Shown here: positions 14,185 through 14,302 of the stretch, in pieces
How positions within the stretch are numbered: the stretch's first letter is position 1
Layout of the letters: the number at the start of each line of letters is the position of its first letter
Source: Thermoplasmata archaeon
Lineage (GTDB): Archaea > Thermoplasmatota > Thermoplasmata > Lutacidiplasmatales > UBA184
DNA length: 37,533 bases
Assembly (NCBI GenBank): GCA_021816955.1
Contig: JAKAWP010000010.1
Span: forward strand, 1 to 37,533
Direction of reading: 5' to 3'
Notes under the pieces: model-generated
Databases searched by the model: none
Told to the model about the DNA's origin: nothing
The model's input: only the letters and a program-made list of their open reading frames with translations
Made by a program: the position numbers and the translations under genes

Positions 14185-14302
14185 GCCGAGGTGGCTCAGT
14201 CTGGTACGGCGCGAGTCTGGAAAGCTCGTGGCGGAATACGCCTCGGGAGTTCAAACGTCGGCGGCGGACCGCCCGCCCCGACGGAGATTCTCCCCCTCGG
14301 CG
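14185..14302 (+). tRNA. tRNA-Ser (anticodon GGA), interrupted in the T-loop
   Basis: Acceptor gccgagg (14185-14191) pairs cctcggc (14295-14301), discriminator G; anticodon stem cgagt/gctcg with loop ctGGAaa (14217-14223); variable stem ggcg/cgcc (14230-14242); T-stem gggag (14245-14249)/ctccc (14290-14294). Confidence 0.9.
14256..14288 (+). other. Candidate tRNA intron in the T-loop (33 nt; boundaries +/-2 nt)
   Basis: Removal leaves T-loop TTCAAAT between gggag and ctccc and an 85-nt tRNA-Ser; insert folds as cgtcgg-c-ggcgg/ccgcc-ccgacg style hairpin (14256-14283). Confidence 0.8.

Follow-up and report, generated by a model that had tools for sequence, protein, structure and literature searches.

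Introduction

Non-canonical tRNA introns are known from Crenarchaeota (Thermoproteales above all), Nanoarchaeota, Thaumarchaeota, Korarchaeota, the Asgard Atabeyarchaeia and Freyarchaeia, and three euryarchaeal methanogens already present in Chan et al. 2011. Position 59/60, within the T-loop, is already a listed archaeal tRNA intron site (PMC4090602), and the training of tRNAscan-SE 2.0 included some euryarchaeal non-canonical introns. The Asgard genomes, which belong to soil and wetland archaea, have introns in 92-95% of their tRNA genes (PMC11291895).

Reviews link the intron repertoire of an archaeon to the type of its splicing endonuclease, EndA. Euryarchaeal α4 and α2 enzymes accompany few introns, one per gene, at position 37/38 (PMC4090602), and Korarchaeum was at one time the only α2 host of non-canonical introns known (PMC4033280). 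In published models, the α'2 enzymes that lack both the ASL (11 residues) and the CSL (15-18 residues), loop insertions associated with broad specificity, are limited to canonical bulge-helix-bulge (BHB) motifs with strict 3-nt bulges (PMC12397907), and loop-less α'2 EndA has also been described elsewhere as restricted to canonical BHB (PMC6379350).

The lineage UBA184 has been placed in an order named Lutacidiplasmatales, the description of which does not mention introns (PMC9287336). In the literature that we searched, tRNA introns were not treated for this order or for any other Thermoplasmata, although someone may already have listed them. Here we analyzed a stretch of 37,533 nt (the window) from a UBA184 genome, and conclude with near certainty that positions 14185-14302 are the only Ser(GGA) gene found in this genome, interrupted by a BHB-type archaeal intron at 59/60.

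Results and discussion

Anatomy of the interrupted tRNA-Ser(GGA) gene

The gene lies on the forward strand. Its 5' exon (14185-14255) contains the 5' strand of the acceptor stem, the D-arm, the anticodon arm, the variable arm, the 5' strand of the T-stem and T-loop positions 54-59 (TTCAAA). The 3' exon (14289-14302) supplies T60, the 3' strands of the T-stem and acceptor stem, and the discriminator G73 at 14302; CCA is not encoded. The acceptor stem pairs 14185-14191 with 14295-14301, the anticodon GGA is located at 14219-14221, and the T-stem is formed by GGGAG (14245-14249) and CTCCC (14290-14294). Between the exons lies a predicted intron of 33 nt (14256-14288) at position 59/60, and hence not at the canonical 37/38. 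The serine tRNA stems, the insert, the anticodon and the absence of CCA on which an earlier, sequence-only reading of this locus had been built are all present.

ARAGORN called no tRNA in the intact window, and the Rfam tRNA model scored 22.8 bits at the locus, below its cut-off of 29. When 14256-14288 was deleted, ARAGORN called a tRNA-Ser(gga), while 33-nt deletions at three control places gave no call; neighbouring deletions within the loop also led to a call, so ARAGORN alone is not decisive for the exact intron boundary. Excision of the insert thus restores a canonical tRNA. Furthermore, a scan for the architecture of the interrupted 3' half (T-stem, TTCRAA, intron, T, T-stem, 7-bp acceptor) matched the window once, at this gene, and matched none of 200 Markov-1 resampled windows, which rules out a chance origin. 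A self-splicing intron was also ruled out, as such introns are much longer than 33 nt and tRNA was the only Rfam family matched. Together, 26 ORFs of the window use 131 UCC/UCU codons, indicating that a tRNA-Ser(GGA) is needed.

The interrupted gene is conserved and has an intronless counterpart

The source genome (G000; 1.42 Mb) is fragmented into 82 contigs and 93.5% complete, as would suit a pseudogene or an assembly artefact at this locus with a functional Ser(GGA) gene elsewhere. However, our tRNA search found no second Ser(GGA) gene in the assembled part of this genome, and a congener listed as 100% complete (G029) has a single one. The full-length 118-nt locus was recovered from 47 of 60 other genomes of the same genus, of which the collections searched hold more than 60 species, with 84-94% identity. 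This conservation excludes the assembly artefact that could have undone the earlier reading. All T-arm exon bases were identical over 29 orthologous T-arms, and we regard the pseudogene or artefact as refuted for practical purposes.

In contrast to the exons, the intron sequence varies among the 29 orthologues, and it does so in a manner that preserves its stem. The covariation score of the intron stem was 0.172 vs 0.101 in shuffled alignments (reached in 0 of 500 shuffles), and controls in which the stem was slid gave at most 0.064. Compensatory change was also in excess, with 19 cells altered on both sides vs 5.5 in the shuffles. Finally, intronless Ser(GGA) genes occur in the same class: the T-arm reads GGGAG-TTCAAAT-CTCCC in two genomes (G066 and G072) and GGGAG-TTCGAAT-CTCCC in a third (G076). 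These uninterrupted T-arms identify the predicted junction between A59 and T60 as the empty site. The placement of the 5' exon is supported by the tRNA stems, the Rfam match, the deletion assay and the invariant T-arm exon, that of the 3' exon by its stems, the invariant T-arm bases and the same deletion, and that of the intron by the orthologues with and without it, covariation and the deletion assay.

T-loop introns interrupt 14 tRNA genes and recur across Thermoplasmata

Weak tRNA matches in the source genome turned out to be further genes of this kind, giving 14 T-loop introns at 59/60, in tRNAs Ser-GGA, Ser-GCT, Ser-CGA, Asn-GTT, Gly-TCC, Glu-CTC, Ala-GGC, Arg-TCT, Arg-TCG, Gln-CTG, Asp-GTC, Lys-TTT, His-GTG and Leu-TAG. 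The T-loop intron first noticed in tRNA-Ser(GGA) is no singular curiosity, as the position is shared by 14 tRNAs of the genome and by the class. A covariance model built from the 14 motifs (R1) recovered in the source genome the 14 introns it was built from and no others.

The congener G029 carries T-loop introns in the same 14 tRNAs, among at least 43 tRNA genes, a count that is a minimum because it includes a single Pro tRNA and lacks any for Ile. It also has four D-loop insertions (initiator-like Met, Arg-GCG, Leu-TAG and Lys-TTT) and four called anticodon-loop introns (Tyr, Met, Leu-TAA and Trp), so that 20 of the 43 counted genes, roughly half, are interrupted. Most of these were recovered by ARAGORN only with the predicted intron cut out. 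A weak R1 match in this genome (C2:137788) is not a tRNA. As in Atabeyarchaeia and Freyarchaeia, non-canonical introns are many, but here the interrupted fraction is lower than in those Asgard genomes and the T-loop set is fixed. Unlike in the known hosts of non-canonical introns, T-loop introns outnumber anticodon-loop introns, and the introns bear no sign of recent copying.

This last observation bears on the origin of the introns, though not on their splicing. The position and motif common to 14 different tRNAs could reflect recent mobility, with one intron copied from tRNA gene to tRNA gene as proposed for Thermoproteales. However, the similarity of non-orthologous intron cores was the same within one genome (-0.119) as across genomes (-0.119), vs 0.154 for orthologous cores, and two species interrupt exactly the same 14 tRNAs. 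As the cores of different tRNAs show no excess similarity, these alignments lead us to reject recent transposition, which we consider improbable; an old spread of introns is possible.

A survey with R1 yielded at least one match in 158 of 400 genomes of the class. All genomes of the same family drawn in this survey matched, with 3 to 14 matches each. Thirty matches from other families were inspected in sequence, and all 30 proved to be tRNAs with T-loop introns, Lys-TTT being the commonest. Many complete genomes of other families had no match at all, indicating that R1 does not fire at random. Judging from these genes, predicted T-loop introns are found across the class Thermoplasmata. Given the methanogens of Chan et al. 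2011 and the intron-richer Asgard genomes, the kind of intron is already known. In contrast, we found no description in the literature searched of how extensive these introns are in Thermoplasmata, of a fixed set of 14, or of the coupling of position 57 presented below. T-loop introns also explain why simple annotation of these metagenome-assembled genomes leaves some tRNAs out.

The T-loop as one half of a predicted splice motif

The introns share a general motif, with the T-stem serving as outer helix and an intron G-R-R paired with U54, U55 and C56, while two 3-nt bulges are formed by A58, A59 and the first intron base on one side, and by the last two intron bases and U60 on the other. In the tRNA-Ser(GGA) gene, folding and covariation support the outer helix (14245-14249 with 14290-14294), while comparison and covariation support the central helix, in which U54 U55 C56 (14250-14252) face GAG (14284-14286). 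A57 (14253), at the fourth central position, stands opposite G (14283). The 5' bulge A58 A59/C (14254-14256) places the predicted 5' cut at 14255/14256 from folding, comparison and canonical BHB geometry, and the 3' bulge AU/U60 (14287-14289) places the predicted 3' cut at 14288/14289 from folding and comparison. The bulges enclose an intron hairpin (14257-14282), also supported by covariation, with the inner helix of the BHB at 14257-14261/14278-14282 and a further stem at 14263-14267/14273-14277.

Over the 14 introns of the source genome, 92.9% of the motif positions were paired and covariation reached 0.652 vs 0.208 in shuffles, part of this signal coming from the T-stem, which is variable between tRNAs anyway. 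We then counted pairs over 137 introns from many genomes; the counts are not independent, since the introns share ancestry and some were gathered with R1, for which 14 of them had served as the input. U54, U55 and C56 were each paired in 136 of the 137. Position 57 was coupled to the intron: G57 stood opposite C in 44 of 45 cases, and A57 opposite G in 86 of 92 and opposite U in only 3. A Fisher test of this coupling takes no account of shared ancestry; however, each state is seen repeatedly in tRNAs that are not related, and Arg and Ser tRNAs show both, each with the matching partner.

Unconstrained RNAfold produced a textbook hBHBh' for the G57 tRNAs Gly-TCC, Asp, Lys and Arg-TCG. G57 tRNAs have mostly a perfect 4-bp BHB, and a strict 4-bp central helix was found in 5 of the 14 source-genome introns, including those four. 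The minimum-energy fold of tRNA-Ser(GGA) did not form the 3-pair central helix, which for this gene rests on comparison. Its central helix has three standard pairs out of four, and the fourth is relaxed because A57 faces G. Its junctions lie in a BHB fold with 3-nt bulges that is backed by comparison.

The pairing of TTC with GAG flanked by 3-nt bulges proposed in the sequence-only reading is the same as that supported by the 137 introns. The relaxation it had foreseen applies at the R57 pair and proved narrower than feared, since bulge and central-helix lengths are canonical. A non-canonical T-loop intron with a BHB relaxed in this sense is the best reading of the locus, and is backed by both excision and comparison. 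Like a canonical 37/38 intron with a strict BHB, it has an outer helix, two 3-nt bulges and an inner helix, in a host that encodes EndA and RtcB; unlike such an intron, it sits in the T-loop and has A57 opposite G. It shares its position class, its BHB architecture and the occurrence of multi-intron tRNAs with other archaeal 59/60 and non-canonical introns, from which it differs in its host, a member of Thermoplasmata with a loop-less two-repeat EndA, and in the A57:G/G57:C coupling. The same design recurs in 14 tRNAs because every tRNA brings one half of the splice motif with its near-invariant T-loop (TTCRAA..T).

Could the insert instead be retained, the mature tRNA bearing an enlarged T-loop hairpin? 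RNAfold shows that the hairpin does not prevent the T-arm from forming. However, T-loop positions 54-59 and T60 are invariant, and within the hairpin only the BHB positions are kept. The coupling of position 57 to an intron base close to the 3' junction is what a splice motif would show, intronless orthologues exist in the class, and EndA and RtcB are encoded. We consider retention very unlikely.

A loop-less two-repeat EndA and RtcB are encoded in the source genome

The EndA gene contains two PF01974 domains in one frame, which are the sole matches to this family in the source genome. With the start that we chose, the protein has 354 aa. Its sequence matches the EndA of Methanopyrus kandleri and Archaeoglobus fulgidus, and close relatives are encoded by MAGs of Thermoplasmata, UBA184 and the AcS/SubAcS bins from soil among them. 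The catalytic residues Y285, H300 and K331 are invariant in 37 EndA homologues, as is R324 (all numbered as in L113, a homologue with 69% identity). We equate R324, as a putative bulge-binding residue, with the bulge-binding Arg280 of A. fulgidus EndA. The structural model of L113 had a mean pLDDT of 90.2 and best matched 5x89 and 2gjw; along the structural alignment, sequence identity with 5x89 and A. fulgidus EndA was ~28%. No insertion of ASL or CSL size was found, as the protein has at most one extra residue relative to M. jannaschii EndA (1a79), taken as the loop-less reference, with the region placed by sequence alignment and not by superposition.

The class of EndA, which the sequence-only reading had left to be identified, is by these comparisons the two-repeat α'2 type: a single polypeptide, with no separate β subunit found and no recognizable ASL or CSL, and the only splicing endonuclease found. 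An RtcB ligase gene is also present. The enzyme resembles the EndA of A. fulgidus (2gjw/1r0v) and Thermoplasma acidophilum (2ohc), as well as the subunit-fusion EndA of M. kandleri (5x89), in its two-repeat chain, catalytic Y/H/K and lack of an ASL/CSL-sized insertion. Unlike these, it co-occurs with many non-canonical introns.

We infer that splicing would proceed as follows. In the precursor, the T-stem would stay paired as the outer helix and U54-U55-C56 would pair with GAG near the 3' end of the intron, A57:G forming a non-Watson-Crick fourth position. The bulges AA/C and AU/U would present the cut sites to an expressed EndA, which presumably dimerizes and cuts both. RtcB would then join A59 to U60, restoring the T-loop UUCAAAU. 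The predicted mechanism is thus ordinary (EndA plus RtcB), in a place that is uncommon, many times over, and in a lineage unexpected from reviews.

Ferroplasma belongs to Thermoplasmata. Its homodimeric EndA can cut minimal BHB substrates, and one design to which this enzyme was applied had a 5' bulge of 2 nt (PMC8707768), making some tolerance plausible. Against the splicing proposed here, A57:G breaks the strict 4-bp BHB, and loop-less α'2 enzymes are described as canonical-only (PMC12397907, PMC6379350). As bulge and central-helix lengths are canonical and only A57:G departs, this may be why a loop-less EndA copes. We lean, with some reserve, towards the view that a loop-less α'2 EndA efficiently splices a large and old set of T-loop introns in Thermoplasmata under a two-letter rule, G57:C or A57:G, set by the exon. 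On this view, broad intron placement would not require the ASL or CSL, one half of an almost canonical BHB being provided by the invariant T-loop itself. Extensive T-loop introns beside such an enzyme strain the view that the type of EndA goes with a given set of introns. With about one third of the tRNA genes interrupted in the T-loop, this accepted link becomes directly testable with the soil enzyme.

Other intron positions and sizes

Several other introns were observed. The tRNA-Lys(UUU) gene of the source genome (L067, G000 C72:9975-10106) appears to hold a second intron, in the D-loop and 20/21-BHB-like, as do four other loci (L230, L233, L240 and L288). There, the exon strand is CUAGG in some lineages and CUGGG in others, with CCUAG and CCCAG as the respective intron partners, so that an A-U pair is replaced by G-C, as read by eye. 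In one family (f25; L221, L223 and L224), tRNA-Lys(TTT) apparently has three introns, in the D-loop, anticodon loop and T-loop. tRNA-Arg(GCG) has a D-loop intron in the source genome (L063, G000 C9:22285-22336) and in G029 (L279), where ARAGORN misread it as Ser(gga). A Met-CAU tRNA of G029, probably the initiator (L271, C11:84080-84182), also carries a D-loop intron and was misread as Arg. The tRNA-Trp(CCA) gene of G029 (L286, C8:105144) has an anticodon-loop intron of 87 nt. In other archaea, the tRNA-Trp intron nests a box C/D RNA. Finally, a genome from family f3 of the same order (L246 in G062) shows T-loop introns down to 13 nt, which the stricter survey had missed.
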